DNA of 64,000 bases from Spinacia oleracea. Taxonomy: Eukaryota; Streptophyta; Magnoliopsida; Caryophyllales; Amaranthaceae. The stretch covers positions 87,425,141-87,489,140 of the forward strand of contig NC_079487.1 of the NCBI RefSeq assembly GCF_020520425.1, read 5' to 3'. Shown piece after piece: positions 28,879 to 61,767 of this stretch. The notes beneath the pieces were generated by a model that worked only from the letters and a program-made list of their open reading frames with translations, did no database searches and was not told the origin of the DNA. The position numbers and the translations under genes were made by a program. Every line of letters starts with the position of its first letter. Within the stretch, counting starts at the first letter, position 1.

Positions 28879-31471
28879 TGTAATACCCCGAATTTTTTTT
28901 AAAACTTGATTAATTATGCTTAATTATTTCTACTTAGCTTAAAACCGTTTTAAATCCTAATTTCGAACTTGATTTTAGTTTACGAAGTTTTATGTCGCTT
29001 GAATTTTAATATTGTTACACGATTTATTTATTTTAGATTTATAATTTAATATTTACGAGCTTAAGCTACCTTTTAAATCTTAATTATTATTTCGTAGTTT
29101 ATAAAGGATTTTAATAATTTCGGAACGTTCCTATATTATTCGAAAACTAAATTTATTTTATGTTAACGATATTTATTAAAGAATTATTTCACAATCTGTT
29201 TTTAATTAAACATTTCTATTTATATAGGATTCCTAAATATAGCAAAGGAATTTCTGAATTTTACCCACCTTATGAAATAACCCAAAATGCTATTTAAAAT
29301 TTAAAAAAAAAAAAAAAAAAAAAAAGGGAAATCCCCTAGCTTTCCCCCCTTCTCCTACGTGTATGGGTGCAATAAGGGTCAAAATTTCCTAGTTTCTTTG
29401 ACTCCTCTTTACCCACAATGCAGTCTAAGTTCATTTTCTTGACCCCCAAGTACCTCTCCTTCTTCTTTACTCTACTTCCATGCTGAGATCATGGGTGATG
29501 TCCATTGAATTCCAATTACCTTATAAATAGAGATGAAATCTGTTTCCCATTTTCACAACAATTCGGTGGAGTAATCTAACAAAAAAACCTCAAGTCCTCT
29601 AGCTATTCCCCTGTTTCGAAACAAACCACCAACGCCACCTCTTGTGGCCACCACCATAGACACCGCAGCTCTGCCACTGCAACTACTTCCACCACCGCAA
29701 ACACCCCCGCATCCCCTCCCCGGTTCGCACTCCCTTTCCCTTGTTGTTCCGCCACCGTGCCGCAACCACCGCACTCCGCCCACCTTTCCCAGCCACCCTC
29801 ACTGCCTGTACACCTCTTTCGCCGCCCATAATCGACCGGAAACACCCATTTCCCTGCTTTCCCCGTTCGCACGACCCTTCCCCCTTCCTTGTTGTTTCGC
29901 CGTCGCGAACCACCACCATTGTCACCACCGCATCACCTCACCGGTGGAAGCACCACTGAACTTTGCCGCCCAGAAACTCCGACCACCTGACCACCTCCAT
30001 GTGTCACCCTAGTGATGTTGCCGCTAACTCACGCACGCCTCACCTCTCCTTTTTCTTGCCTCTGTTTCGTCTAATGTGAAACCAGGTGGTTGGGACCTTG
30101 CTCCAAATCCCAATTAATATGCTGCTAATATTTTCTTTTCAAAAAAAAAAAAAAAAAAAAAAGTCAACTATACTTACCAACCACTAAAGACAAAATTGGG
30201 TAAGTTTTAATGCTATTCTACGTAATACAAGTAATACTCCTAATAGATTCTTCAAGTATGATTATTAACAACTATATTCATGATTTACATAATGGATTTA
30301 CGTAATTGGGTAAGTTTTAATGCTATTCTACATAATGGATTTACATAATTTATAAAACTTGTTTTTCTAAAATATGATTATTAACAACTATATTCATAAT
30401 TGTATATAATTACTAATTTTGGTAATTTAATCGTATAAGTATTCTCGGAGCTCAGGAAGAACGGTCCATCGAACAGGAAGTATAAACTACGGTTGAGGTA
30501 ACATCTATTGCTAACACCCACAATCCCCTTATAAAATGTGTTTATGTGATTATGAAATATGTTTATAATGATGTGTTTTTATTGGATTGTGGGATATGAA
30601 ATGTATTTATGAAGTGTGTTTTATGAATGATGATATTTAAATATGTTTATGAATGATTTTATAAGATGATGTTTACGAGTTATTAATAAGATACGAAACA
30701 TGATAAATAAAAGTGTAACAGGTTCTGGCAGTTAGTGGGGTTACTATTTTTAGGTCGTGCACGTACCGCCGTACCGCGGGACACCCAACAAGGGAGAGTG
30801 CTCCTTGAGGGTTACCGCAAGCTAAAAGAGAAACTATTTAGGTACGGGCGTATGTCCAACAAGGGAGAGTGCTCCTTGAGGACTATCGCAAGGTGGGAGA
30901 CGTCCCGCAAGGCTAACTTGTCAGTTACCAAGTAAAATGAATGTTTTATGAAAGATAATGGGAACTATTAAAGTTTCAAGTTATAAATTATGTTTTATTA
31001 TAATGCATTTATGAAAGTGTTTTACTATATTCTATTCTCCCTGATTGCAAAGTAAATAAAATGAATTGAAATGAGTTTACGCTGTTAGGGTAGTATGTTA
31101 CTGGGCCTCGGCTCACGATATTGCTTTTGTTTTAGGTACGAAGAAGATCATGGGATGCCTTAGAGTGAGGATGCAACCACCAAATTCACGATTGATGTTT
31201 AGTAAAGATAACTATGTCATTAGTAATAAAGGGATGTATTATTTAAAGTCTAAGTTTGATTTCATGATTTGAGTTAGATTTTAATATTAATGTTTAATCA
31301 GATGTTAAAAGTGTTTATTATTAAAGTTTATTTAGTAATTTAAAAAGGTTATGTCGCCTTGTATTTCCCACGAGGGAAATAGGCATGTGACACTCCGACT
31401 AAATTAGGGTTTCCGCTGCTAATTAAAGATAATTAACCTAATTTATGGTGTTTAGAAGTCGGGGTGTTACA
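28879..31471 (+). repeat. LTR 1 of the array
   Basis: TATA-like TTATAAATAGAG near 29522 and a short GC-rich, Pro/Thr-coding-like block (29620-30010) downstream of it, followed by poly-A tracts (29310-29325, 30140-30161). Contains two copies of the phrase CAACAAGGGAGAGTGCTCCT (about 30787 and 30858). Open frames in the GC-rich block follow its composition and are not taken as genes. Confidence 0.93.
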
Positions 31472-33861
31472 GTTTGGTATTCAGAGCCAAAGTTCTGCGA
31501 CCATAAGTGCTAAACCTTACGGGTTTTGCACGAAATAAAATTCATTAGGCTTTAAGCAAGAATTTTAAGGAATAAGTTAAAAAGAATATTTTAAAATCAA
31601 TTAAAGTTAAAATGGAATGAGTGTGAGTGTAGGAACGGGATTAAAGGGATTTATTCTCTTGTTATTTATGTTTTCCTGATTGAATATATTATGCGAAATA
31701 TCGATTGTCGAGGGCATTAACGATGCCATGAACGAAGCTCACAACAAGCACAACATTCACGATGGCGCCAACATTAGTATTATTTCAATTTATCTCTCTC
31801 GCTTTGGATCCGAACTTCCCATGTTTATCATGTTATGAGTTTCCTACCCTAGACAGACTAGGCAAAGTTTAAGCATTACTGTTTTCTTGAAAGAAGTTAA
31901 GTTAAAGCACGATGCGAACACAAAGATTTTGTGGATATGAATTGTTTTGAGGAATTTTTATGGTTATGGAATCTTTAAGGATAGTATAAATGTTAAGTAT
32001 CAAACGAGCATAAGGTTGTATTTCACGAGTGGTGGATCACTAATTAAGTTAAGGTTATTATAGGTTTATAGTGTTCAAATTATGAATGAAATTGATTCTA
32101 GGGTTACCTTCCCGTGTTATCCATGATAAATATTTTGGTGTATAAGTACAAAAGTCTAGTATCTAAAAGATGATTAATATGCCTCTATTAAGGAAGCTAA
32201 GAAGTTATACATAAATGTTATGAACCACATGAGTTAGGGTAGAAGACCCGTTTTAGTTGACATATGAATAAGATTTTGAGGATTTTATCAAAAGGAGTTA
32301 TCAGGAATTAGTATATCAAAAGATTGAATGATAGAGTATCGAAAGAGCATGAGTTTGTATTTCGTAAGTGGCGAATCAACAATTAAATCGAGGTTTAAAG
32401 CATTGAAGTTACGATTGAAATCGATTCTTAGATTACCATTACGCATAATTATAAGGATTGTTTTTTTTATGTATTTATCTGAAAGGATGCTTGATAATCT
32501 CCATAAAGAAAGCTAAGAGAGATAATTTAAGGTTTGTAAAATGTTATGGGAAAACATGTTTTGTGGTGATCGAAAAGACGAAATTGAGTTTGCATATAAA
32601 GTTTTGAGGATTCTACCAAAATGAGTTATCAAGAATTAGTATGTGTATCAGGTTGATGATATCAATGACTGTTATGAAATTCGAAATGAGTTATGAATGA
32701 TTGAGGAATGCAATGAAATTGAGAATAGGAAATCGACAAAACGACATGTCTATAAAACCAGGTAGTCTGAACTAAGTTTTCTGGAAGATAGATTGTTTCT
32801 GATAAAGGCACATTTGATGACTTAGCATTATCCGCGAAATACGAGGGTTGTCTACCTGAAATACTAAGAATAAGTAACGATCGAAGTCGTATGTCCAACG
32901 ATGTATTTTCTATCACGTGATTGACTCGAACCCCTGCAACGAACGTAGTCAACGAAGTTATTCAACGTAGAGGAAAAGATAGGAGATCGAAATCAAAACG
33001 AATCGAATAAAGAAAGTCAACGACAAGATTCCTGCAGCAAAGAAGCTCAAGAGCAAACGAAAACGCAACATCTCCAGATAGTCGCCTAAGAACAATATAA
33101 TGTACGAATCACGAGGTTTTATGTAAACGTGTTATGAATCAACCATGCTCGTGTGTTAGATCGAATGATTATGAATGTTATGCTTATGTTGAATGTGAAA
33201 ATTTTCAATTTATGAATTATGTCTTTATGATATGCTTTATGGATTATGTTTATGCTGACATGATTGTATTGGTAATCTAATCGTTATACATGGAAGCCGA
33301 CTTCGGTGGACGTTCTCCTGAGCTCAGAGTATGAGATTGTTATAATAAATGACTTTTACGAATTATTTGAGTATTGCAATTGTTAGATAAATATTTATTC
33401 TCATTTTCAAAGTCATAAATTTTGCATTAAATATTACTATTTTTGGTAAGAAAAATATTTTCAAACAAGATATCACAAAGTAAAATGGGAGCCTAGTCTA
33501 AGCTAACAAGTTTGCCCCTTTTATGTTCTTTGCTCCTCGATCCTATTTTATGAAGTAAAGTGGAGGTACGAAAGATGCTGGCAGAATGTAATTGACCTTA
33601 ATGACGATTAAGGGTCGATATATAATTTTGCCCCTTTTGTATTCTTTACTCTTCAATTCTAGGTCTCGAGTTGAAGCTGAGTCATCAAAGAAGATGGCGG
33701 AATGAAAGCTAGACATTGTCGGAATTGATATACAATTGTGAGATCTTGGTTTTAAAATAAAATGTCATACTTTTATTTCGAATATTTTCGATTCAGAACA
33801 ATCATTTTATAGGTTTAATTTTCAAGTTTCGAGGACGAAACTTTTTCTAAGGGGGTAAGAG
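31472..33861 (+). other. Internal region, copy 1 (noncoding)
   Basis: About 2.39 kb between LTR 1 and LTR 2. Primer site at 31475, polypurine run at about 33848-33861. No gag, protease, RT, RNase H or integrase signature was seen on either strand. Frames of 62-96 codons are present but look random. Confidence 0.85.
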
Positions 33862-36452
33862 TGTAATACCCCGAATTTTTTTTTAAAACTTGATTAATTA
33901 TGCTTAATTATTTCTACTTAGCTTAAAACCGTTTTAAATCCTAATTTCGAACTTGATTTTAGTTTACGAAGTTTTATGTCGCTTGAATTTTAATATTGTT
34001 ACACGATTTATTTATTTTAGATTTATAATTTAATATTTACGAGCTTAAGCTACCTTTTAAATCTTAATTATTATTTCGTAGTTTATAAAGGATTTTAATA
34101 ATTTCGGAACGTTCCTATATTATTCGAAAACTAAATTTATTTTATGTTAACGATATTTATTAAAGAATTATTTCACAATCTGTTTTTAATTAAACATTTC
34201 TATTTATATAGGATTCCTAAATATAGCAAAGGAATTTCTGAATTTTACCCACCTTATGAAATAACCCAAAATGCTATTTAAAATTTAAAAAAAAATAAAA
34301 AAAATAAAGGGAAATCCCCTAGCTTTCCCCCCTTCTCCTACGTGTATGGGTACAATAAGGGTCAAAATTTCCTAGTTTCTTTGACTCCTCTTTACCCACA
34401 ATGCAGTCTAAGTTCATTTTCTTGACCCCCAAGTACCTCTCCTTCTTCTTTACTCTACTTCCATGCTGAGATCATGGGTGATGTCCATTGAATTCCAATT
34501 ACCTTATAAATAGAGATGAAATCTGTTTCCCATTTTCACAACAATTCGGTGGAGTAATCTAACAAAAAAACCTCAAGTCCTCTAGCTATTCCCCTGTTTC
34601 GAAACAAACCACCAACGCCACCTCTTGTGGCCACCACCATAGACACCGCAGCTCTGCCACTGCAACTACTTCCACCACCGCAAACACCCCCGCATCCCCT
34701 CCCCGGTTCGCACTCCCTTTCCCTTGCTGTTCCGCCACCGTGCCGCAACCACCGCACTCCGCCCACCTTTCCCAGCCACCCTCACTGCCTGTACACCTCT
34801 TTCGCCGCCCATAATCGACCGGAAACACCCATTTCCCTGCTTTCCCCGTTCGCACGACCCTTCCCCCTTCCTTGCTGTTTCGCCGTCGCGAACCACCACC
34901 ATTGTCACCACCGCATCACCTCACCGGTGGAAGCACCACTGAACTTTGCCGCCCAGAAACTCCGACCACCTGACCACCTCCATGTGTCACCCTAGTGATG
35001 TTGCCGCTAACTCACGCACGCCTCACATCTCCTTTTTCTTGCCTCTGTTTCGTCTAATGTGAAACCAGGTGGTTGGGACCTTGCTCCAAATCCCAATTAA
35101 TATGCTGCTAATATTTTCTTTTCAAAAAAAAAAAAAAAAAAAAGTCAACTATACTTACCAACCACTAAAGACAAAATTGGGTAAGTTTTAATGCTATTCT
35201 ACGTAATACAAGTAATACTCCTAATAGATTCTTCAAGTATGATTATTAACAACTATATTCATGATTTACATAATGGATTTACGTAATTGGGTAAGTTTTA
35301 ATGCTATTCTACATAATGGATTTACATAATTTATAAAACTTGTTTTTCTAAAATATGATTATTAACAACTATATTCATAATTGTATATAATTACTAATTT
35401 TGGTAATTTAATCGTATAAGTATTCTCGGAGCTCAGGAAGAACGGTCCATCGAACAGGAAGTATAAACTACGGTTGAGGTAACATCTATTGCTAACACCC
35501 ACAATCCCCTTATAAAATGTGTTTATGTGATTATGAAATATGTTTATAATGATGTGTTTTTATTGGATTGTGGGATATGAAATGTATTTATGAAGTGTGT
35601 TTTATGAATGATGATATTTAAATATGTTTATGAATGATTTTATAAGATGATGTTTACGAGTTATTAATAAGATACGAAACATGATAAATAAAAGTGTAAC
35701 AGGTTCTGGCAGTTAGTGGGGTTACTATTTTTAGGTCGTGCACGTACCGCCGTACCGCGGGACACCCAACAAGGGAGAGTGCTCCTTGAGGGTTACCGCA
35801 AGCTAAAAGAGAAACTATTTAGGTACGGGCGTATGTCCAACAAGGGAGAGTGCTCCTTGAGGACTATCGCAAGGTGGGAGACGTCCCGCAAGGCTAACTT
35901 GTCAGTTACCAAGTAAAATGAATGTTTTATGAAAGATAATGGGAACTATTAAAGTTTCAAGTTATAAATTATGTTTTATTATAATGCATTTATGAAAGTG
36001 TTTTACTATATTCTATTCTCCCTGATTGCAAAGTAAATAAAATGAATTGAAATGAGTTTACGCTGTTAGGGTAGTATGTTACTGGGCCTCGGCTCACGAT
36101 ATTGCTTTTGTTTTAGGTACGAAGAAGATCATGGGATGCCTTAGAGTGAGGATGCAACCACCAAATTCACGATTGATGTTTAGTAAAGATAACTATGTCA
36201 TTAGTAATAAAGGGATGTATTATTTAAAGTCTAAGTTTGATTTCATGATTTGAGTTAGATTTTAATATTAATGTTTAATCAGATGTTAAAAGTGTTTATT
36301 ATTAAAGTTTATTTAGTAATTTAAAAAGGTTATGTCGCCTTGTATTTCCCACGAGGGAAATAGGCATGTGACACTCCGACTAAATTAGGGTTTCCGCTGC
36401 TAATTAAAGATAATTAACCTAATTTATGGTGTTTAGAAGTCGGGGTGTTACA
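33862..36452 (+). repeat. LTR 2 (middle) of the array, mosaic of LTR 1 and LTR 3
   Basis: 2591 bp. At 34352, 34727 and 34875 it carries the LTR 3 base, not the LTR 1 base. At 35776 it carries the LTR 1 base, not the LTR 3 base. This left/right switch is what one crossover between a 3' LTR and a 5' LTR would leave. It has one private change at 35027. Confidence 0.9.
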
Positions 36453-38842
36453 GTTTGGTATTCAGAGCCAAAGTTCTGCGACCATAAGTGCTAAACCTTA
36501 CGGGTTTTGCACGAAATAAAATTCATTAGGCTTTAAGCAAGAATTTTAAGGAATAAGTTAAAAAGAATATTTTAAAATCAATTCAAGTTAAAATGGAATG
36601 AGTGTGAGTGTAGGAACGGGATTAAAGGGATTTATTCTCTTGTTATTTATGTTTTCCTGATTGAATATATTATGCGAAATATCGATTGTCGAGGGCATTA
36701 ACGATGCCATGAACGAAGCTCACAACAAGCACAACATTCACGATGGCGCCAACATTAGTATTATTTCAATTTATCTCTCTCGCTTTGGATCCGAACTTCC
36801 CATGTTTATCATGTTATGAGTTTCCTACCCTAGACAGACTAGGCAAAGTTTAAGCATTACTGTTTTCTTGAAAGAAGTTAAGTTAAAGCACGATGCGAAC
36901 ACAAAGATTTTGTGGATATGAATTGTTTTGAGGAATTTTTATGGTTATGGAATCTTTAAGGATAGTATAAATGTTAAGTATCAAACGAGCATAAGGTTGT
37001 ATTTCACGAGTGGTGGATCACTAATTAAGTTAAGGTTATTATAGGTTTATAGTGTTCAAATTATGAATGAAATTGATTCTAGGGTTACCTTCCCGTGTTA
37101 TCCATGATAAATATTTTGGTGTATAAGTACAAAAGTCTAGTATCTAAAAGATGATTAATATGCCTCTATTAAGGAAGCTAAGAAGTTATACATAAATGTT
37201 ATGAACCACATGAGTTAGGGTAGAAGACCCGTTTTAGTTGACATATGAATAAGATTTTGAGGATTTTATCAAAAGGAGTTATCAGGAATTAGTATATCAA
37301 AAGATTGAATGATAGAGTATCGAAAGAGCATGAGTTTGTATTTCGTAAGTGGCGAATCAACAATTAAATCGAGGTTTAAAGCATTGAAGTTACGATTGAA
37401 ATCGATTCTTAGATTACCATTACGCATAATTATAAGGATTGTTTTTTTTATGTATTTATCTGAAAGGATGCTTGATAATCTCCATAAAGAAAGCTAAGAG
37501 AGATAATTTAAGGTTTGTAAAATGTTATGGGAAAACATGTTTTGTGGTGATCGAAAAGACGAAATTGAGTTTGCATATAAAGTTTTGAGGATTCTACCAA
37601 AATGAGTTATCAAGAATTAGTATGTGTATCAGGTTGATGATATCAATGACTGTTATGAAATTCGAAATGAGTTATGAATGATTGAGGAATGCAATGAAAT
37701 TGAGAATAGGAAATCGACAAAACGACATGTCTATAAAACCAGGTAGTCTGAACTAAGTTTTCTGGAAGATAGATTGTTTCTGATAAAGGCACATTTGATG
37801 ACTTAGCATTATCCGCGAAATACGAGGGTTGTCTACCTGAAATACTAAGAATAAGTAACGATCGAAGTCGTATGTCCAACGATGTATTTTCTATCACGTG
37901 ATTGACTCGAACCCCTGCAACGAACGTAGTCAACGAAGTTATTCAACGTAGAGGAAAAGATAGGAGATCGAAATCAAAACGAATCGAATAAAGAAAGTCA
38001 ACGACAAGATTCCTGCAGCAAAGAAGCTCAAGAGCAAACGAAAACGCAACATCTCCAGATAGTCGCCTAAGAACAATATAATGTACGAATCACGAGGTTT
38101 TATGTAAACGTGTTATGAATCAACCATGCTCGTGTGTTAGATCGAATGATTATGAATGTTATGCTTATGTTGAATGTGAAAATTTTCAATTTATGAATTA
38201 TGTCTTTATGATATGCTTTATGGATTATGTTTATGCTGACATGATTGTATTGGTAATCTAATCGTTATACATGGAAGCCGACTTCGGTGGACGTTCTCCT
38301 GAGCTCAGAGTATGAGATTGTTATAATAAATGACTTTTACGAATTATTTGAGTATTGCAATTGTTAGATAAATATTTATTCTCATTTTCAAAGTCATAAA
38401 TTTTGCATTAAATATTACTATTTTTGGTAAGAAAAATATTTTCAAACAAGATATCACAAAGTAAAATGGGAGCCTAGTCTAAGCTAACAAGTTTGCCCCT
38501 TTTATGTTCTTTGCTCCTCGATCCTATTTTATGAAGTAAAGTGGAGGTACGAAAGATGCTGGCAGAATGTAATTGACCTTAATGACGATTAAGGGTCGAT
38601 ATATAATTTTGCCCCTTTTGTATTCTTTACTCTTCAATTCTAGGTCTCGAGTTGAAGCTGAGTCATCAAAGAAGATGGCGGAATGAAAGCTAGACATTGT
38701 CGGAATTGATATACAATTGTGAGATCTTGGTTTTAAAATAAAATGTCATACTTTTATTTCGAATATTTTCGATTCAGAACAATCATTTTATAGGTTTAAT
38801 TTTCAAGTTTCGAGGACGAAACTTTTTCTAAGGGGGTAAGAG
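36453..38842 (+). other. Internal region, copy 2 (noncoding)
   Basis: Nearly identical to copy 1; by eye one substitution (near 31602 versus 36583). Same primer site and polypurine run. Confidence 0.85.
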
Positions 38843-41433
38843 TGTAATACCCCGAATTTTTTTAAAAACTTGATTAATTATGCTTAATTATTTCTACTTA
38901 GCTTAAAACCGTTTTAAATCCTAATTTCGAACTTGATTTTAGTTTACGAAGTTTTATGTCGCTTGAATTTTAATATTGTTACACGATTTATTTATTTTAG
39001 ATTTATAATTTAATATTTACGAGCTTAAGCTACCTTTTAAATCTTAATTATTATTTCGTAGTTTATAAAGGATTTTAATAATTTCGGAACGTTCCTATAT
39101 TATTCGAAAACTAAATTTATTTTATGTTAACGATATTTATTAAAGAATTATTTCACAATCTGTTTTTAATTAAACATTTCTATTTATATAGGATTCCTAA
39201 ATATAGCAAAGGAATTTCTGAATTTTACCCACCTTATGAAATAACCCAAAATGCTATTTAAAATTTAAAAAAAAAAAAAAAAAAAAAGGGAAATCCCCTA
39301 GCTTTCCCCCCTTCTCCTACGTGTATGGGTACAATAAGGGTCAAAATTTCCTAGTTTCTTTGACTCCTCTTTACCCACAATGCAGTCTAAGTTCATTTTC
39401 TTGACCCCCAAGTACCTCTCCTTCTTCTTTACTCTACTTCCATGCTGAGATCATGGGTGATGTCCATTGAATTCCAATTACCTTATAAATAGAGATGAAA
39501 TCTGTTTCCCATTTTCACAACAATTCGGTGGAGTAATCTAACAAAAAAACCTCAAGTCCTCTAGCTATTCCCCTGTTTCGAAACAAACCACCAACGCCAC
39601 CTCTTGTGGCCACCACCATAGACACCGCAGCTCTGCCACTGCAACTACTTCCACCACCGCAAACACCCCCGCATCCCCTCCCCGGTTCGCACTCCCTTTC
39701 CCTTGCTGTTCCGCCACCGTGCCGCAACCACCGCACTCCGCCCACCTTTCCCAGCCACCCTCACTGCCTGTACACCTCTTTCGCCGCCCATAATCGACCG
39801 GAAACACCCATTTCCCTGCTTTCCCCGTTCGCACGACCCTTCCCCCTTCCTTGCTGTTTCGCCGTCGCGAACCACCACCATTGTCACCACCGCATCACCT
39901 CACCGGTGGAAGCACCACTGAACTTTGCCGCCCAGAAACTCCGACCACCTGACCACCTCCATGTGTCACCCTAGTGATGTTGCCGCTAACTCACGCACGC
40001 CTCACCTCTCCTTTTTCTTGCCTCTGTTTCGTCTAATGTGAAACCAGGTGGTTGGGACCTTGCTCCAAATCCCAATTAATATGCTGCTAATATTTTCTTT
40101 TCAAAAAAAAAAAAAAAAAAAAAAGTCAACTATACTTACCAACCACTAAAGACAAAATTGGGTAAGTTTTAATGCTATTCTACGTAATACAAGTAATACT
40201 CCTAATAGATTCTTCAAGTATGATTATTAACAACTATATTCATGATTTACATAATGGATTTACGTAATTGGGTAAGTTTTAATGCTATTCTACATAATGG
40301 ATTTACATAATTTATAAAACTTGTTTTTCTAAAATATGATTATTAACAACTATATTCATAATTGTATATAATTACTAATTTTGGTAATTTAATCGTATAA
40401 GTATTCTCGGAGCTCAGGAAGAACGGTCCATCGAACAGGAAGTATAAACTACGGTTGAGGTAACATCTATTGCTAACACCCACAATCCCCTTATAAAATG
40501 TGTTTATGTGATTATGAAATATGTTTATAATGATGTGTTTTTATTGGATTGTGGGATATGAAATGTATTTATGAAGTGTGTTTTATGAATGATGATATTT
40601 AAATATGTTTATGAATGATTTTATAAGATGATGTTTACGAGTTATTAATAAGATACGAAACATGATAAATAAAAGTGTAACAGGTTCTGGCAGTTAGTGG
40701 GGTTACTATTTTTAGGTCGTGCACGTACCGCCGTACCGCGGGACACCCAACAAGGGGGAGTGCTCCTTGAGGGTTACCGCAAGCTAAAAGAGAAACTATT
40801 TAGGTACGGGCGTATGTCCAACAAGGGAGAGTGCTCCTTGAGGACTATCGCAAGGTGGGAGACGTCCCGCAAGGCTAACTTGTCAGTTACCAAGTAAAAT
40901 GAATGTTTTATGAAAGATAATGGGAACTATTAAAGTTTCAAGTTATAAATTATGTTTTATTATAATGCATTTATGAAAGTGTTTTACTATATTCTATTCT
41001 CCCTGATTGCAAAGTAAATAAAATGAATTGAAATGAGTTTACGCTGTTAGGGTAGTATGTTACTGGGCCTCGGCTCACGATATTGCTTTTGTTTTAGGTA
41101 CGAAGAAGATCATGGGATGCCTTAGAGTGAGGATGCAACCACCAAATTCACGATTGATGTTTAGTAAAGATAACTATGTCATTAGTAATAAAGGGATGTA
41201 TTATTTAAAGTCTAAGTTTGATTTCATGATTTGAGTTAGATTTTAATATTAATGTTTAATCAGATGTTAAAAGTGTTTATTATTAAAGTTTATTTAGTAA
41301 TTTAAAAAGGTTATGTCGCCTTGTATTTCCCACGAGGGAAATAGGCATGTGACACTCCGACTAAATTAGGGTTTCCGCTGCTAATTAAAGATAATTAACC
41401 TAATTTATGGTGTTTAGAAGTCGGGGTGTTACA
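38843..41433 (+). repeat. LTR 3 of the array
   Basis: 2591 bp, ends TCGGGGTGTTACA, followed by the second copy of gtgag. No primer site follows it; instead host sequence and, 11 bp later, Copia 2. Confidence 0.93.
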
Positions 41434-41449: not shown

Positions 41450-42182
41450 TGTTGTAGATTAAGAGTTTTCAAGGCTAAAATGAAGAACAAGAAAGTAAGA
41501 CTTACGGAACTTGTTGTGCCGTGGTAACCAAACCACTGTCTTGAAAACGAGATTCGGTGCAACCGGGATGTACAATTGTATTCACCGATTCGTTCCCTAA
41601 GGTTTACACAACCCTCAACACACAATGACACTCTTGGGTGTGAGATGGAGTTACCAGAACTTATGCCCAAAAGAAAGGAAGAAAGGGAGATGATAAGGGA
41701 ATGATTTTCTGTAAACAAATCAAGAAATGAAGCATGTATTTATAGGATTAGAGGAGAATACAAAACAACCCAAAGAAACCAAAGGACTCAAAAGAATCCA
41801 ATGGTATTGAATCACCAATTAAATCCATGATAATGAAGGGTTTATAACCCCCATAATCAAGAGAAATAATGGACCAAATTAATCATCATAATCAGAATGA
41901 TAATTGTCCATAAATCATACTTAAAAGGTTATCATAAAAGAGGAATCCAAAGAGAAGATCAAAAACGGACAACACTAAGAGCCGATCTCGAAACCTGCCG
42001 GTTTCTCAAAACCGGTCGGTTTTCGGTGCACTTCAAAAAATGCCTTTTAAGTCCGTTTTTCAACTCACGCTCGAAACCTGCCGGTTTTGGAAAACCTGGC
42101 AGACAGGTTTTGGGAAAACCTGCCGGTTTTCCAAAACCTGGCAGGCAGGTTTTGAGCGCTTTTCCATCTTTAAATTCCAACA
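41450..42182 (-). repeat. 3' LTR of Copia 2
   Basis: 733 bp. Its 41985-42155 part is packed with inverted and direct copies of motifs like AAAACCTGCCGGTTTT and CCTGGCAGGCAGGTTTT, able to form strong hairpins. Confidence 0.92.
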
Positions 42183-46810: not shown

Positions 46811-47543
46811 TGTTGTAGATTAAGAGTTTTCAAGGCTAAAATGAAGAACAAGAAAGTAAGACTTACGGAACTTGTTGTGCCGTGGTAACCAAACCACTGC
46901 CTTGAAAACGAGATTCGGTGCAACCGGGGTGCACAATTGTATTCACCGATTCATTCCCTAAGGTTTACACAACCCTCAACACACAATGACACTCTTGGGT
47001 GTGAGATGGAGTTACCAGAACTTATGCCCAAAAGAGAGGAAGAAAGGGAGATGATAAGGGAATGATTTTCTGTAAACAAATCAAGAAATGAAGCATGTAT
47101 TTATAGGATTAGAGGAGAATACAAAACAACCCAAAGAAACCAAAGGACTCAAAAGAATCCAATGGTATTGAATCACCAATTAAATCCATGATAATGAAGG
47201 GTTTATAACCCCCATAATCAAGAGAAATAATGGACCAACTTAATCATCATAATCAGAATGATAATTGTCCATAAATCATACTTAAAAGGTTATCATAAAA
47301 GAGGAATCCAAAGAGAAGATAAAAAACGGACAACACTAAGAGCCGATCTCGAAACCGGCCGGTTTCTCAAAACCGGCCGGTTTTCGGTGCACTTCAAAAA
47401 ATGCCTTTTAAGTCCGTTTTTCAACTCACGCTCGAAACCTGCCGGTTTTGGAAAACCTGGCAGACAGGTTTTGGGAAAACCTGCCGGTTTTCCAAAACCT
47501 GGCAGGCAGGTTTTGAGCGCTTTTCCATCTTTAAATTCCAACA
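46811..47543 (-). repeat. 5' LTR of Copia 2
   Basis: Same length and ends as the 3' LTR, with the same hairpin-prone motif cluster at 47346-47515. A TATA-like site on the minus strand lies near 47097-47105 (CCTATAAATACATG). Confidence 0.92.
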
Positions 47544-48585: not shown

Positions 48586-49427
48586 CTACCTCCGTTTCTA
48601 AAAGTTCTTTACGATTTGAAAAATATGTCCAAAGTATAAAAATTTTGACCGTAAATTCTCACTATTATATACATCAAAACATTACATGTAAGATCTTGTT
48701 AGATTGGTTTCGGTATGTATTTTCAGAATATCAAATTTTTATAATTTTTTCACATACGAAATTGAATATACAGCGCGTCTCCTGTGAGACCAGTCACACC
48801 ATCAACTTGATGGTGTGACGAGCGCGAAACCAATAGCGTACCTCCCCTAAAACTATAAAAAAGTAACAGATCTAAACTATAGAAGTAACATACCTAAACT
48901 AAAAAAGTACCTCCTCTAAAATTATATATATATAAAAAAAAAGTAACATGTCTAAATTATAGAAGTAACATACCTAAACTAAAAATTTACCTCCCCTAAA
49001 ACTAATCCGTATAAAAAAAGTAACATGTATAAATTATAGAAGTAACATACCTAAACTAAAAAAAGTACTTCCTCTAAAATTATAAAAACAAAGTAACATG
49101 TCTAAACTATAGAAGTAACATACCTAAACTAAGAAGGTATCTCCCCTAAAACTACTCCGTATAAAAAAAATAACATGTATAAACTATAGAAGTAACATAA
49201 CTAAACTAAAAAAAATACCTCCTCTAAAATTATATAAAAAAAAAAAAGTAACATGTCTAAACTATAGAAGTAACATACCTAAATTCGCAAGTGTGAATTG
49301 GTCTCACCATCAGTTGATGGTGAGAACAGTCTCATATAAGAATTTGGGTTGAATATATTAGTAGTTAAATATTACATGGGAGTTCGTGCAAATATTGACT
49401 ATAAAGATCTTTTTAAAACAGAGATAG
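48586..49427. mobile_element. Stowaway-like MITE, split by palindrome-repeat element 1
   Basis: Flanked by TA (48584-48585, 49428-49429), inverted ends CTACCTCCGTTTCTAAAAG and, in reverse complement, CTATCTCTGTTTTAAAAAG. Without the 578-bp nested element and its 9-bp duplication it would be about 255 bp, the same length as the relative at 57933-58187, with which it shares long similar stretches. Confidence 0.8.
48771..49348. mobile_element. Palindrome-repeat element 1 (MULE-like, 9-bp TSD)
   Basis: 578 bp with a perfect 9-bp target duplication TTGAATATA (48762-48770, 49349-49357). It starts CAGCGCGTCTCC and ends GAATTTGGG. Near the left end is a perfect palindrome with 13-bp arms (GTCACACCATCAA, one base, TTGATGGTGTGAC). 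Near the right end is a palindrome with 10-bp arms (CTCACCATCA, GT, TGATGGTGAG). In between is a tandem array whose units follow GTAACATGTCTAAACTATAG, GTAACATACCTAAACTA and GTACCTCCCCTAAAACT in turn, about 70 bp per triplet. The two ends are imperfect inverted repeats of each other (TGTGAGACCAG versus TATGAGACTG). No coding capacity. The 9-bp duplication points to Mutator-like transposition. Confidence 0.85.
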
Positions 49428-49429
49428 TA

Positions 49430-50561
49430 TAAGAACATTTTGGGCATCGCTCTAGCATTCTCCGGTTCCGCAACATAAATTTCCTCGTTCCCGCCTCCCG
49501 GTTATTCGTCTCCCAACAAAGTTAATCACAAATTGCCTTTCTTTTTACACTTTAATTCATTTGATCATTTCATTGGCTTAAGAATATGTTCCCCCTTCCC
49601 CACTTCTAATCAATCACTCAAGCGCGCAATCACAAAACAAATATATGTACAAAATATATTCTCCACTTACCCATTATCGAACAAATTTATGACTGTTGAG
49701 CATCCATTTCATTTTAGAGTAAATTATTTAAATCTAAGCTCTCAATTTTCAATTACCGTGTGTATGAGATGTTCTTACACTTATTTAATGTCAGACCATA
49801 TATAATATTATGTCATCTCGGTAAGTGTTGGTTAACATATATATAAGTAGTCGTCTGAATAAACTAGTAGATAATCTTTTACAAAAGTTTGTATCTTCTA
49901 AAGATATTGAGGATGTAATTAAAATTACAACTTTAATTTTGTTGTAAACTTTTCTTTTGCTTCACCCCTTTTTAGGTAGTGTACAATGAGACAATGAGTA
50001 GATATAAAGGCTAATATATAGCCATGGATTTTGAATTTAGATGTTGAGTGGAGTATAAAATAACGAAATTACTTTCAAGTAAAATGGACTCGATCATATA
50101 GATAGTTATACATAATTTGTCTTTTCCTCTTACATTAAAGAGGGAACAGAAGATGATAAATTGTACAAACTTCATTTAACATGGGATTTACTATACTTTT
50201 TCTTAATACGGAGTATTTTTTAAACATCATAAACATTATATTTAATGGACCCTAACCACTCTTTGTACAAATTAGTAACATTGTTATTTTCATGCATGCA
50301 TGAATGAAAAATTGTACTTTTTTCTATAACTTTTCAATGTTGGTTCTAATTAGATTTCATCATATATAATTCCAACTAGAAATAATGCATATTTTCGCGA
50401 TCATTTTGGCCGAAAATTGAGAAGAAAACAAATCATATTAAGTAATGAAGAAATAATTCCATATCAACTTACACACGAAATATTACATAACAGAGTCGAA
50501 AATAATTTCTCCTCTTGTATACATTTCCCGCAAGGTAACCAAAAAAGAGGGGAAAAAGATA

Positions 50562-50601
<40 letters not shown>

Positions 50602-50780
50602 ATATGGGTCATTCTAAGCTAATTTCAAAATTGATGGGTTGAGTTTATCTCAAGTTAATGGATGGTCAAGTAACTAGAGAAATAGTTCATGTCTCTCTAA
50701 ATCTAATAACTCGATGGTCCAGTAACTGGAGAGAATCCTTACCCTGTGTTTGTTACCCTAAGAAGAGGTTTAGTAATTAA
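49430..50780. other. Intergenic sequence downstream of the GDU gene
   Basis: AT-rich DNA with no recognised gene. It should contain the GDU 3' UTR at its right edge. A (TA)n microsatellite lies at 50571-50599. Confidence 0.5.
50571..50599. repeat. (TA)n microsatellite
   Basis: A pure TA run directly behind a poly-A run. Confidence 0.95.
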
Positions 50781-51308
50781 TTAAATATGTGGGTGAGTGG
50801 TTTCATCTTCTTTAGGCTTCTCATCATCATTGGTTCCCTCATCTTGATCCTTAGCAATATTGTTATTACTAACCTTTAGATGATCATTAGAAATTATGTT
50901 GGGCAACAACATTAAGGCAGGGGTAGCTAAGAAAGTAGGCTTATCATTGCCAGCCATAATAACCACAATCTTCTCTTCATAAACAGGAATTCCATTCATC
51001 TTACTAACTCCATCTACTTTCTCACCATTCTCAATATCCCCTCCCTCATTGCCTTGTCGTTGGGCATCGTCGTCGTTTCTAGCCAATTTCCAGTAAGAGC
51101 AAGCCAATATCAAGAGGGCAAAGGCTATTAGGCCGAGCATCGCCGCTAAGCCTCCGAAAAGGTAAGGCACCGGCGAGTGCCATGGTGATCTCGGCTGTGT
51201 TGAGAACGTCGTGGTTGATGCTGGAGCAATGGAGAATGTGTTCTTCTCCGGGGTTAAGGTGGGGTGTACGAAAGTGGTCATCCTCATGTTTATGTCCTGT
51301 TTTTTCAC
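50781..51308 (-). CDS. GDU: GLUTAMINE DUMPER (GDU) family membrane protein
   Basis: Intronless minus-strand gene of 175 codons. GDU proteins are small plant plasma-membrane proteins whose overexpression causes amino-acid export. They act through LOG2-type RING ubiquitin ligases and their transporter targets are not fully known. Here an N-terminal Ser/Thr/Pro-rich segment leads into one membrane helix (HSPVPYLFGGLAAMLGLIAF, about residues 44-63, continuing LLILACSYWKL), then an acidic linker and the family's VIMAG box (VYEEKIVVIMAGNDKPTFLA, about residues 109-128), followed by an acidic C-terminal tail. Length is close to Arabidopsis GDU1 (about 158). Met 1 or Met 8 (MRMTTF) could be the start. 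A TATA box lies about 83 bp upstream. It appears intact. Confidence 0.92.
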   Translation of the reverse strand: MKKQDINMRMTTFVHPTLTPEKNTFSIAPASTTTFSTQPRSPWHSPVPYLFGGLAAMLGLIAFALLILACSYWKLARNDDDAQRQGNEGGDIENGEKVDGVSKMNGIPVYEEKIVVIMAGNDKPTFLATPALMLLPNIISNDHLKVSNNNIAKDQDEGTNDDEKPKEDETTHPHI

Positions 51309-51390
51309 TAGGAAGAAAAGGGGTGTTTTTATTATTTGGGGTGTTGTTGTTGTTGTGATGATGTGAGTGTGTGATGGGGGTGTGAGGGTG

Positions 51391-51398
51391 TATTTATA
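51391..51398 (-). promoter_or_regulatory. TATA box of the GDU gene
   Basis: TATAAATA on the minus strand, about 83 bp before the ATG, leaving room for a short leader that contains GT/AAC-rich simple sequence (about 51335-51365). Confidence 0.65.
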
Positions 51399-51767
51399 AG
51401 AGAAAAAGAAAAGAAAAGAAAAGTAGGAGAGAGATTATTTGATGGAGTGGATCGAGTAATTAAAAGGATCACAGATAGGATGATGTTGTGTTGTTGGAAA
51501 GAGTTAGCTAGCTAGCCTAACAAAATGGGCAATTGAACAATTAAGAAGCCAATAATTAAACTAACACCTATTTCAGGGGCAACTTTTCATTTGGTTTTGA
51601 TCCTATCCTATATTCCTCTCACCTTAATACGTATAGAAATGTTAAACGGAGTCGTTTAAGGTTGGTTATGGCCCGATAGAGTATAATCGACTCAGGTCAT
51701 ATCAGATAATAGTTTACGTACGTAGGTTACATTAATGTGTCCGATCTATATTATAGATGCATGAATC

Positions 51768-53513
51768 TATACTATTGTTAAAACTCCAAGGTAAAAAGTG
51801 TCATCTCGCCACATGCCGCTATGACCTCTCATTTGATAGTCACATATTTTAACCACTATGCCACAACTCATTTTGTTATTTCTTATACGTTCAAAATTAT
51901 TCAATCAATATAATTAGAAAAGTGAATTGAATAATTTCTTAATAGTTTCTCATCACTAATTAGTCATTAATTTTACGAGTTAGAAATCCTTACATGATAA
52001 AATTTATTAAAGCATACTCAAAACAAGATACATAGTAATCTAACAAATTAAATAAAATTCAAAACAAATAATATAATAATCTAATTAATCTATTATTCTA
52101 CTATCAGAAACATCGCCCGTGACACTAATCAGTTGTTTTTCCAAATCACTTCATTTTGTATGGATTGCGGTCAAATTGGGTCAGTTTTTTCCTTTTACAG
52201 TTCTATTTGTGTATCAAAATGGAGTTACGTCGTTTCAGGAGAGGGCCCATTGTGTACCTTAGCAAATGGTTTTGTGATGGGCCCGCATAATTATTACTAG
52301 TAGTACAAGTATAAAGAAAGCTAGTTGTTCTATTATTGGTTGTGTTGCGGTAAATTGGGACTCACTCACAACTTGCATGAAAGCTCGGTAACCTAATACT
52401 AATACTACTACTAGTAGTAAAACTCTAGTAATGGGCAATAATGAAGAGGGCCTCCAAGTCCCACACTCCCACCAAGCCATGCGCACCAACGTACTACGGA
52501 GTAGTGTACTCCCTATTTCCCCATTTGCCTCTTATATATACGGATTACCTTGCTAATATACTGTGATGATAGCACGAGTTAAATTTCAATCAAGATAATC
52601 ACGTTTAAATAGAAATTATACCTAAGTTCAAATAAGATTTAATAAGTAATGCAGTAGAAAGTTTATTTAAAGACAAGTTCATGGCTCTATTCTCCCTATG
52701 TTACTTTCACCTATTTCATGATATATTAATACGATTAGACAAGATAAGTTTAGATAAGATAAATTCAAAGTTAATAAGTCCATATAGAATAAGTTTAAGA
52801 TTAATAAATTTTGACAATATTAGTCCACATGACTAATATCTTCAGATAATTGTTTGGTTTAGGCCATGACTGATGAGCAAGTTCGTTCTCTCTGATTTCA
52901 ATTATCTCAAATATAGTTAGCACTTAGTTAGCAGCATGTTGACGAGTTGATGACACCTTTATATCCAATCCATTATCCATAGCCCATAATACTAATTCAT
53001 CATCTTAATCATCATCATCAACATTCATGTTTTATTCTGTTTCTCAGTGATGTCAGTGTATATGATTGTGAGTCCAATAATGTCACGCCAATTCAACTGA
53101 ATCAATATGATCATCATTATTCTTCCTCTAAAACGTATGTCTCAAGGTTATCACTACTTCAAAAAGAACACCTTAATTATCGAGTTGCGTCTAACTCATA
53201 TACGCCGCGTCTAAATACTACCAACTTACCACAAAAATGACTACAAAGTACATATATACAAACTATCATAAATTCCACTACGCCAAGTCGTGTCTAACGT
53301 CGACAATCAGGCTATATTAACCTGATAAGATCTCATCCAAAAAAAATTCGTGTGGAACAAATGAGTCCCAACTCACATGTAGGTTATTAATTTAAACCAT
53401 TAAATTAAATAAAGGAATGGTTGTGTATAAACCCCCTTACGTTAATTATGACAAATTTTAGTTATATATTTTTTTATCTCTATGTATATCCGACAAAAAA
53501 ATTAAAGTATGTA
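51768..53513. other. Noncoding interior of Helitron C
   Basis: AT-rich DNA with a minus-strand frame of 76 codons at 52259-52489 that I do not regard as a gene. At about 53167 the sequence CACTACTTCAAAAAGAA could be a degenerate CACTA-type end, but no partner was found. Confidence 0.4.
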
Positions 53514-55427
53514 CTCCCTCCATTTCTTTTTGATGTATCAATTTGGAATCTGGTGTGGTTTTTAAGAAAATTGAAATATTAATTGGTTTGTATGGGTATA
53601 AATTTAATGATTGGGTGTAAGAAAAATGATTGGGTGTAAGAGATTATAATAAATAAAGGAGTGAGAAAATAATAAAGAAATAAGGTAAGAGAGAGGAGTG
53701 ATAATGATGGGTGATAAAGGAGGTGAGAGAGTGGGTATATGGGGAAGGGAAAAGAATTAAATATTATGAGTGGGAAAAATTAGGTGGGAATATGGGTAAA
53801 ATCTTTGGGTATTTTGGTAATTAGATAGAAATGTGAGGGTATTTTAGGATAAAATGTACAGCGCGTTTCCTGTGAGACCAGTCACACCATCAACTTGATG
53901 GTGTGACGAATGCGAAACCAATAGCGTACCTCCCCTAAAACTATAAAAAAAAAAATGTAACATATCTAAATTATAGAAGTAACTTACCTAAACTAAAAAA
54001 GTACCTCCAATAAAATTATAAAAAAAAAAAAGTAACATGTCTAAACTATAGAAGTAACATACCTAAACTAAAAATGTACCTCCCCTAAAACTATTCCATA
54101 CAAAAAAAAAAGGAACATGTCTAAACTATAGAAGTAATATAACTAAACTAAAAAAGTACCTCATCTAACATTACAAAAAAAAGTAACATGTCTAAACTAT
54201 AAAAGTAACATACCTAAACTAAGAAGGTATCTCCCCTAAAACTATAAAAAAAAATGTAACATATCTAAATTATAGAAGTAACTTACCTAAACTAAAAAAG
54301 TACCTCCAATAAAATTATAAAAAAAAAAAAGTAACATGTCTAAACTATAGAAGTAACATACCTAAACTAAAAAAGTACCTCATCTAACATTACAAAAAAA
54401 AGTAACATGTCTAAACTATAGAAGTAATATATAAATTAAAAAGGTACCTCCCCTAAAACTAATCCGTATAAAAAAAGTAACATGTCTAAACTATAGAAGT
54501 AACATACCTAAACTAAAAAAGTACCTCATCTAACATTACAAAAAAAAGTAACATGTCTAAACTATAGAAGTAATATATAAATTAAAAAGGTACCTCCCCT
54601 AAAACTATTCCATACAAAAAAAAAAGGAACATGTCTAAACTATAGAAGTAATATAACTAAACTAAAAAAGTACCTCATCTAACATTACAAAAAAAAGTAA
54701 CATGTCTAAACTATAGAAGTAATATATAAATTAAAAAGGTACCTCCCCTAAAACTAATCCGTATAAAAAAAGTAACATGTCTAAACTATAGAAGTAACAT
54801 ATCTAAACTAAAAAGGTATCTCCCCTAAAACTACTCCATATAAAAAAAAAAGTAACATGTCTAAACTATTGAAGTAACATACCTAAACTAAAAAAAATAC
54901 CTCCTCTAAAATTATTAAAAAAAAAAGTAACATGTCTAAACTATAGAATTAACATACCTAAACTAAGAAGGTATCTCCCCTAAAACTATTTCGTATAAAA
55001 AAAAGTAACATGTATAAACTATAGAATTAACATACCTAAACTAAGAAAAGTATTTCCTCTAAAATTATATAAAAAAAAAGTAACATGTCTAAACTATAAA
55101 AGTAACATACCTAAACTAAGAAGATATCTCCCCTAAAACTACTCCGTATAAAAAAAGTAACATGTATAAACTATAGAAGTAACATACCTAAACTAAAAAA
55201 AGTATCTTCCTCTAAAATTATAAAAAAAAGTAACATGTCTAAACTATAGAAGTAACATACCTAAATTCGCAAGTGTGAACTGGTCTCACCATCAGTTGAT
55301 GGTGAGGACAGTCTCATATAAGAATTTGGGTAAAATGTATGTCCAAAAATAGAATAGATTCTAAATGGATACAACAATATGAAACGCTTAAAATGGAAAC
55401 GGATACAACAAAAAGAAACGGAGGGAG
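53514..55427. mobile_element. Stowaway-like MITE, split by palindrome-repeat element 2
   Basis: TA duplications at 53512-53513 and 55428-55429. Inverted ends CTCCCTCCATTTCTTTTTG and, in reverse complement, CTCCCTCCGTTTCTTTTTG. Net length without the nested element is about 430 bp, long for Stowaway. The left arm is rich in GAGAG/GGGTA-type sequence. Confidence 0.85.
53859..55330. mobile_element. Palindrome-repeat element 2 (MULE-like, 9-bp TSD)
   Basis: 1472 bp, the same family as 48771-49348: same start CAGCGCGT, same end GAATTTGGG, same 13-bp-arm palindrome at the left and 10-bp-arm palindrome at the right. A perfect 9-bp target duplication TAAAATGTA lies at 53850-53858 and 55331-55339. 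The interior array is about 2.5 times longer, with the same three alternating monomers of 22-30 bp (GTAACATGTCTAAAC, GTAACATACCTAAAC, GTACCTCCCCTAAAAC). Some longer stretches (about 140-180 bp) are themselves repeated within it. No coding capacity. Confidence 0.88.
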
Positions 55428-60880: not shown

Positions 60881-61015
60881 CATTTTTTTTGACAAGTTAA
60901 GATTTCATTAATCAATCAAACCAATTACACCAAGGGAGGGAGGAGGAGAAACAGGTTTCTCCTGCAGCCCAAGCCAAACAGAAGGCTAAGAACACTCAGC
61001 CAACAACCCCAACCT
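60880..61015 (-). mobile_element. Possible LINE 3' end
   Basis: On the minus strand the segment ends ATTAATGAAATCTTAACTTG followed by TC and a short poly-A, a common 3' end of plant L1-type LINEs, preceded by a GC-richer untranslated-like stretch. Only about 130 bp is present and no reverse transcriptase was seen, so a 5'-truncated copy is the best reading. Confidence 0.4.
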
Positions 61016-61018
61016 CAA

Positions 61019-61767
61019 GTCTTATATGTGACCAGCCACAACATCAACTTGATGGTGTGACATGTTCACACTTACAATAAGCCCAATGCGTTTAAAGCCA
61101 GAAAATAAAGTAACATCAGCATAGAAAATAAAGTAACATCAGTATATACAAATAACATCTAACATGAAATTGAAGAAAATGCAATAAACCAAGAAAAGTA
61201 ACAGCGAATACAATGTATAAGTAACACCGACATAGAAATTCAAGTAACATCAATCTATACAAGGAACCTTTAACATAAAATTGAAGAAACTGCAATAACT
61301 AAAACTAACACCAACACAGAAATTCAAGTAACACTAGACTATATAAGAAACCTCAAACATGAAATTCAAGAACTGTAGTAAAACAAAGAAAAAATAACAG
61401 CGAATACAACGTATAAGTAACATCATCATAGAAAGTCAAGTAACATCGGTCTATACAAGGAACCTTTAACATGAAACTGGAATAAAATAAGAAAAGTAAC
61501 AACCAATACACTGTACAAGTAATACCAACATATAAAATCAAGTACCACCAGTCTATACAAGCAACCTCTAACATTTTTTTTTCTTTGAAAAGAAGCAACC
61601 TCTAACATAAAATTCAAGAAATTGCAGTAAAGAAAGAAAAGTAACGGCGAATACTATGTATAAGTAACACTAGCATAGAACGTTAGGTAACACTCGTCAA
61701 TAACTTTCTCCATATTAATTGCACGTACACGTCACACCATCAAGTTGATGGTGTGGCTGGTCACACA
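61019..61767. mobile_element. Palindrome-repeat element 3, diverged relative
   Basis: Inverted ends share TGTGACCAGCCACAMCATCAA. Each end carries a palindrome: left about 61037-61061, right about 61731-61757 with CACACCATCAA and TTGATGGTGTG arms. The interior is again a loose tandem array rich in GTAACA (e.g. AAGTAACATCAGTATATACAA, GAAATTCAAGTAACA) with irregular 100-200 bp periods. Architecture is as in elements 1 and 2, but the interior sequence differs. Flanking duplication is not clear because a CACTA element starts directly at the right edge. Confidence 0.65.

Follow-up and report, generated by a model that had tools for sequence, protein, structure and literature searches.

Spinach elements with palindromic ends and tandem-repeat bodies: two related families, probably non-autonomous and MULE-type

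Tandem repeats inside elements that make 9-bp target duplications are already known from Tm1, Rehavkus and VANDAL. Mutator-like elements (MULEs) duplicate 8-11 bp of their target, 9 bp in many families, and among them the VANDALs combine 9-bp duplications with terminal inverted repeats that are absent or short and degenerate (PMC6446971). The protein VANC21 binds a 9-base motif that lies in one orientation in the non-coding tandem repeats of VANDALs and has been gained or lost between related copies; DUF1985 is shown as a VANC domain, and AT9TSD1, which is unrelated to VANDAL, carries VANC6 motifs and is acted on by VANC6 (PMC5735166). The action of VANC on VANDAL arrays is also described in PMC10398659. 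Here, we analyse a stretch of 64,000 nucleotides of Spinacia oleracea (assembly GCF_020520425.1, contig NC_079487.1, positions 87,425,141 to 87,489,140 of the forward strand; G000:C1:87425141-87489140 in our numbering), referred to below as the window. It contains two copies of an element family that we call A and one copy of a sister family, B, and in both families a tandem array is combined with ends that hold palindromes and are related to each other although unequal. Taking the ends, the duplications and the arrays together, we consider it probable that these are non-autonomous MULE-type elements that are mobilised in trans, their arrays plausibly serving as binding sites as in VANDAL.

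Known elements with tandem repeats and the spinach families

As far as they are described in the papers cited above, VANDAL21 and VANDAL6 of Arabidopsis resemble the spinach elements in their 9-bp duplications, in inverted ends that are absent or degenerate and in arrays of a motif in one orientation, and AT9TSD1 resembles them in carrying VANC6 motifs. However, VANDALs encode VANA/B/C, whereas the window copies encode nothing of at least 40 amino acids. The motifs also differ, being YAGTATTAY, AGTTGTCC or AGTTGTAC in VANDAL versus AAGTAACA in the spinach families, and the AGT common to them was noticed post hoc. Tm1, a Mutator/Foldback element of root-knot nematodes, has 9-bp duplications, asymmetric terminal motifs, variable short tandem repeats and a group resembling miniature inverted-repeat transposable elements (MITEs), but its repeats are described as lying inside the inverted ends (PMC3169594), whereas those of family A form a one-orientation body between palindromic ends. 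Tetris of Drosophila virilis is similar in its internal tandem repeats, in a middle domain without apparent coding capacity and in a transposase source that has not been found. In that element, according to the sections cited, 220-bp repeats make up long arrays like those of a satellite in addition to being located in the inverted ends (PMC4079207), while the places inspected here showed nothing of this kind. Rehavkus is MULE-related and has a 9-bp duplication and a minisatellite before its 3' end, but it is known from arthropods and annelids and has a PHD-finger transposase (PMC6446971), whereas the window copies of family A contain no protein. Xmix/Xstir, miDNA4 and the lepidopteran GTCY MITEs are also small and non-autonomous and carry tandem repeats; they are, however, animal elements, and the sections cited of the review on them make no mention of palindromic asymmetric ends or of a motif shared across families (PMC9659126).

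A survey of spinach repeats counts 167 MULE-MuDR and 445 unknown MITE sequences and, in the sections cited here, describes no family of such build (PMC6337768). A text search of the literature with five words from the family A ends and array yielded nine papers, none of them on transposons by title. The text on a barley MULE of "unusual structure" contains no tandem repeats. The first-pass annotation of the window, made from its letters only, had known of no named family with this build. For the kind of build this was too strong, since VANDAL, Tm1, Tetris and Rehavkus all pair tandem repeats with similar ends or with 9-bp duplications.

Ends, target duplications and the sister family

Both family A copies in the window (Table 1) are flanked by exact 9-bp duplications and have a left palindrome with 13-bp arms and a 1-nt centre, and a right palindrome with 10-bp arms and a 2-nt centre that stops 24 bases inside the right end. 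The first-pass annotation had given the duplications, the palindromes and a tandem body for these two copies, and it was right to the base. There are 24 start positions in the window for palindromes whose arms are 10 bp long and whose spacer is at most 3 nt, compared with a mean of 0.8 in five mononucleotide shuffles, and one AT microsatellite accounts for 11 of the 24. In folding predictions for single-stranded DNA, copy 1 forms a three-way junction at its left end (dG -20.4, z -7.0), with a GCGC outer stem and hairpins of 5 bp and 12 bp, and copy 2 forms a single long imperfect hairpin at its right end (z -3.9). No open reading frame (ORF) of at least 40 amino acids lies wholly within either copy, each of which is overlapped from outside by one ORF.

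The genome surveyed comprises 894,210,420 bases in 242 contigs. A left-end 30-mer with one degenerate position has 255 matches in it and a right-end 33-mer with two degenerate positions has 293; with up to three mismatches, 583 left and 534 right ends were found, and the reversed-pattern controls gave 0 throughout. Through exact or near-exact end matches, 88 loci were fetched, from which 72 distinct left ends were kept after removing repeats of one place and duplicated segments. A right end lies within the fetched stretch in 64 of them, which we call complete copies, and is lacking in 8. The right-end loci L044, L057 and L060, without a recognisable left end, are not counted among the copies, and L065 belongs to the L026 copy as its right end. 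Over the complete copies, the two nine-base flanks match at 9/9 in 41, at 8/9 in 15, at 7/9 in three, at 5/9 in four and at 4/9 in one. Thus, at least eight of the nine bases agree in 56 of 64 copies, a duplication length within that of MULEs, whereas flanks re-paired among copies match at 8/9 in 0.23% of cases and at 9/9 in none. These results indicate that the duplications are not due to chance and that, in the copies examined, they accompany the family. The 41 exact duplications are AT-rich, with 83% versus 71% in the flanks. When the left end was aligned with the reversed right end, a score of 51 was obtained, the best of 500 shuffles reaching 35. Therefore, the ends of family A are related though unequal; they are inverted repeats of a strongly degenerate kind, each holding a palindrome.

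The copies without a right end are of several kinds. L027 has its right part deleted and, as judged by eye, still finishes in AGAATTTGGG followed by the nine bases of its left flank. L026 and L037 are interrupted by other inserted sequence, the arrays of L072, L079 and L080 give way to unrelated sequence and are apparently likewise interrupted, and L007 and L030 show no right end in the fetched stretch. By eye, an element of another type, with ends like GGATTTTTCATGAAATACCCCC... and the complement, is seemingly inserted into the family A arrays at L026, L065, L037 and L080, and it apparently duplicated about 9-11 bp of array at L026/L065. At L030, on the reverse strand, the array ends after about 170 bp of element, and the sequence beyond it, which reads like part of a gene for an RNA-binding protein with an RNA-recognition motif (RRM-like), had suggested a Pack-MULE capture. 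This claim was dropped because a 32-amino-acid piece has no Pfam match at E 0.1 and the right end was not reached, gene capture and nested insertion being indistinguishable at this locus. In G000:C2:93686733-93716190, left and right ends of family A recur at 21.9-kb spacing, which is consistent with a tandem segmental duplication carrying several copies.

A search of the fetched DNA and of the window with the family A ends revealed the third element of the window, the family B copy. It has its own tandem units and 39-bp inverted arms, 95% identical, that hold the same palindrome; it is truncated, with roughly the final 12 bases of the CAGCGCG end missing, and no target duplication was found for it. 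In a genome search with this stretch, 40 of 1106 candidates were scored, 39 of them besides the copy itself. These 39 places share 77-87% identity with the window copy; 36 of them start at query positions 52-58 and 29 stop at position 808, boundaries that put the part in common at about 61011/61013-61767. From the six best-scoring relatives, the true ends were obtained as CCTCAAGTCTTATATG... and ...ATGAGACGCGCTG; in these relatives the 9-bp duplication is exact in three, matches at 8/9 in one and reaches only 7/9, after a shift, in two. The left end of family A matches the CAGCGCG end of family B at 51 of 54 aligned bases, and its right end matches the other family B end at 51 of 65. The recognition of this window copy as a truncated member of a sister family that has the same asymmetric ends and 9-bp duplications is new in this analysis. 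The mean pairwise identity of seven family B sequences is 85% (short flanks included), compared with 95.5% for 25 nine-unit copies of family A that were picked by length and unit count, and from the lower identity family B looks older than A. Four family B end sequences were folded, with z from -2.8 to -4.4 in three and -1.7 in one, which is less clear than in family A. With up to three mismatches, the family B end has 427 matches in the genome, family A copies among them. One 29-bp end variant occurs in 21 identical genome copies; it is a candidate for a third, young or autonomous family and the best lead to an autonomous partner.

Arrays, the shared octamer and the rival explanations

The bodies of the window copies are arrays detected by Tandem Repeats Finder, with periods that include 22, 75-77, 150 and 295. 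In family A, the body was decomposed into four monomers, here named a to d, which are grouped into the trimers cab and dab, each about 75 bp long. The three monomers in units of about 70 bp described at first were thereby recovered, with a 150-bp level in addition. The commonest order, cab-dab-cab-dab-dab-cab-dab-cab-dab, is found in 11 of the 64 complete copies, and the median length of 796 bp is close to this nine-trimer form, with a range of 269-1472 bp and 2-18 trimers. Lengths change in steps of about 75 bp, the 6- and 11-trimer forms are recurrent, and the six-trimer string of copy 1 is present in 5 of 64 complete copies, copy 1 included. For 14 of the 17 copies that qualified under the strict nine-unit definition, comparing the units in corresponding positions between copies gave 95.6-97.7% identity at eight of nine positions and 93.3% at the ninth, while units at different positions within a copy were 84.9-94.2% identical in 35 of 36 pairs. 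With one exception, same-position units are closer across copies than units within a copy, and the array was therefore inherited through transposition with its order kept. Changes in array length look secondary to the inherited nine-trimer order, and unequal exchange or slippage probably lies behind the steps of about 75 bp.

The length series could also be expected if a neutral minisatellite arose once in a deletion derivative of a MULE and was merely tolerated as a passive hitch-hiker, the differences between copies being drift and slippage. Lengths that step by the unit size and the recurrence of the 6- and 11-trimer forms speak for such hitch-hiking. In addition, one copy of 269 bp has only two trimers and its 9-bp duplication nevertheless matches, so that insertion would not require a long array unless the shrinkage came later. 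Against it stands the motif content of the arrays. Those of families A and B are otherwise unlike, and both are rows of the octamer AAGTAACA. The density of AAGTAAC is 22.4 per kb in family A arrays (64 copies, 41,985 bp) and 20.0 per kb in family B arrays (7 copies, 4,156 bp); on the reverse strand it is 0 in both, and in the flanks (159,399 bp) about 0.1 per kb. With the core relaxed slightly, the commonest distance from one site to the next is 22 bp in family A and 23 bp in family B, which is near two turns of the helix. Both arrays thus have a short motif in one orientation in non-coding tandem repeats, as in the VANDAL group. That two families with shared ends and unlike arrays carry the same one-orientation octamer at about 20 per kb argues against hitch-hiking and hints that the arrays are docking or binding sites instead of filler. 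Lower divergence of the octamer in family B points the same way: the AAGTAACA columns diverge by 0.054 versus 0.105 elsewhere, with 5 of 588 circular shifts as low, a result that is only suggestive because AAGTAACA ranks fifth of 35 repeated 8-mers in these arrays. We regard passive hitch-hiking as a serious possibility, if somewhat short of probable, and a neutral passenger array as nearly as likely as an array of protein sites.

A number of observations weigh against our preferred reading, that of elements mobilised in trans with arrays as binding sites. In family A, the motif-constraint signal is unconvincing (69 of 652 shifts), which would suit hitch-hiking, and AAGTAACA is mid-table among 49 repeated 8-mers; moreover, scoring columns by the consensus motif favours conserved columns. 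The family B array runs opposite to the family A array relative to the shared ends, which is not predicted by a strictly polar mechanism. Within a copy, units 6 and 8 share 97.1% identity, which is as much as units share between copies, and the end-conservation estimate for family A is inflated because its loci had been selected through exact or nearly exact matches to the ends. Furthermore, no autonomous element with family A ends emerged from a comparison of the listed exact end positions with the best-scored matches of PF10551 (MULE transposase domain; best 150 of 1960 candidates) and of PF09331 (DUF1985; best 150 of 893), which was scripted on contigs 1 and 2 and done by eye elsewhere. On contigs 1 and 2, the closest two of 54 best-scored MULE matches lie 4.7 and 7.2 kb from an exact family A end, each adjoining a complete short copy, and none of 41 best-scored DUF1985 matches lies within 100 kb of such an end. 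The MULE match nearest to the 21-copy end variant, among those best scored and by eye, is 22.6 kb away.

Both domains are nevertheless abundant in the genome, with a match in 150 of the 150 scored candidates for PF10551 and in 149 of 150 for DUF1985. No best-scored MULE match lies inside any listed element, and no VANC gene could be linked to the family A ends among the best-scored DUF1985 matches. One DUF1985 match, at C1:70892620, is 5.1 kb from the array cluster at C1:70898011, about 0.09 such pairs being expected. A left-to-right end pair 7.5 kb apart at C3:17644985 was considered as an autonomous element and rejected, as 601 bp read inward from its left end proved to be ordinary array.

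In elements of the foldback type (FB, FARE, Tm1, Tetris), tandem repeats are part of the inverted ends, where they would add transposase sites and promote expansion. Such an origin would agree with the asymmetry of the outer motifs and with the duplications of 9 bp, both of which Tm1 also has (PMC3169594), and the sections cited discuss repeats as a source of additional transposase sites in Galileo and Tetris (PMC4079207). However, the family A array is interior, with its motif on one strand only, whereas the repeats of Tm1 and Tetris lie in inverted ends, and we find a foldback-type explanation improbable.

Another alternative is that the repeat is a dispersed satellite DNA that gained its ends secondarily, most of it lying outside elements. 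The exact array 40-mer has 1283 places in the genome (627 + 656). The 100 places listed, from the first 96.5 Mb of contig 1, were grouped by eye into 40 clusters, each with 1-4 exact motif matches, and 26 of these have an exact end within 2.2 kb. The other 14 would speak for a satellite, but two of them coincide with a left-end match, and in all three that were read of the remaining 12 the left end is present in mutated form, accompanied in two by the right end. The latter two are whole elements, with point mutations in their ends and, by eye, matching nine-base flanks, the left end of L096 being ambiguous by one base. The third has its array cut by a sequence that we take to be tRNA-like, resembling a short interspersed nuclear element (SINE-like). 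Among the 100 listed of the 1283 places, there was no cluster with more than four exact motif matches and no long free array, and arrays did not exist mostly as long satellites without these ends. On the evidence of these listed places, we judge a satellite origin to be very improbable. The earlier suggestion that satellite DNA spreads by means of these elements is unsupported, since the 40 listed clusters are short and the three end-less clusters read are decayed or interrupted elements.

Table 1. Features of the family A and family B copies in the window (positions are those of the window)
Feature	Position	Strand	Description
Copy 1, left target duplication	48762..48770	+	9 bp, TTGAATATA; partner 49349-49357
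Copy 1, whole element	48771-49348		578 bp
Copy 1, left end	48771..48837	+	CAGCGCGTCTC...; 13-bp palindrome 48793-48819; GCGC outer repeat
Copy 1, array	48838..49283	+	six trimers, cab-dab-cab-dab-cab-dab
Copy 1, right end	49284..49348	+	10-bp palindrome 49303-49324; terminal ...AAGAATTTGGG
Copy 1, right target duplication	49349..49357	+	9 bp
Copy 2, left target duplication	53850..53858	+	9 bp, TAAAATGTA; partner 55331-55339
Copy 2, whole element	53859-55330		1472 bp
Copy 2, left end	53859..53925	+	palindrome 53881-53907
Copy 2, array	53926..55265	+	eighteen trimers, longest among 64 complete copies
Copy 2, right end	55266..55330	+	palindrome 55285-55306
Copy 2, right target duplication	55331..55339	+	9 bp
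Family B copy	61013..61767	-	opposite orientation relative to shared ends; end palindromes; array units of ~100/196 bp with AAGTAACA

Other repeats are present in the window. At 30599-40637, a row of tandem repeats recurs at 4,981-bp spacing (30599, 35580 and 40561), and positions 30000-35000 show 83% ungapped identity with the stretch 4,981 bp further on, which suggests a locally repeated segment of about 5 kb. Positions 10101-10373 and 19133-19405, 9,032 bp apart, are 99.6% identical, and positions 41986-42154 and 47347-47515, 5,361 bp apart, are 98.8% identical. Both pairs are possibly parts of the long terminal repeats of retrotransposons.

A possible mechanism and its meaning

The assignment of families A and B to the MULEs is favoured by the 9-bp stagger, the degenerate ends and the abundance of MULE domains, all of which fit. 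The view, offered as one alternative in the first-pass annotation, of a non-autonomous MULE that tolerates changes in array length has held up as probable, given the duplications and window copies devoid of longer ORFs. In such a scheme, the transposase of a putative autonomous element would act in trans on the non-autonomous copies. It would recognise two ends that are related yet not equal, CAGCGCGTCTC... and CCCAAATTCTTATATG..., in each of which a palindrome lies 22-24 bases inward, and the element would be inserted via a staggered 9-bp cut. By analogy with VANC on the VANDAL arrays of Arabidopsis, the array may be a one-orientation row of putative sites, with the core AAGTAACA, for an element-encoded or host protein, which would most likely be an anti-silencing or recruitment factor.

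A bolder version can be proposed tentatively, although we hold it to be rather doubtful. The arrays would be mobile docking platforms, and a single 8-bp word, AAGTAACA, would have been kept in dense rows of one orientation, in two related families whose repeats are unlike, by the binding of a VANC-like, element-encoded factor for anti-silencing or transposition. Non-coding elements consisting almost entirely of these sites would then spread by parasitising this factor, in a VANDAL-like arms race in a caryophyllid.

Should the arrays be neutral, the families would offer a clean case of a minisatellite inherited by transposition with its unit order preserved. If, on the other hand, they are binding platforms, a parallel to the sequence-specific, VANC-type anti-silencing of Arabidopsis would exist in a second plant order, reduced to a non-autonomous element with hardly more than binding sites and ends. 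Because array length varies naturally from 2 to 18 trimers while the ends stay the same, the influence of the number of sites on methylation and mobility can be tested directly.

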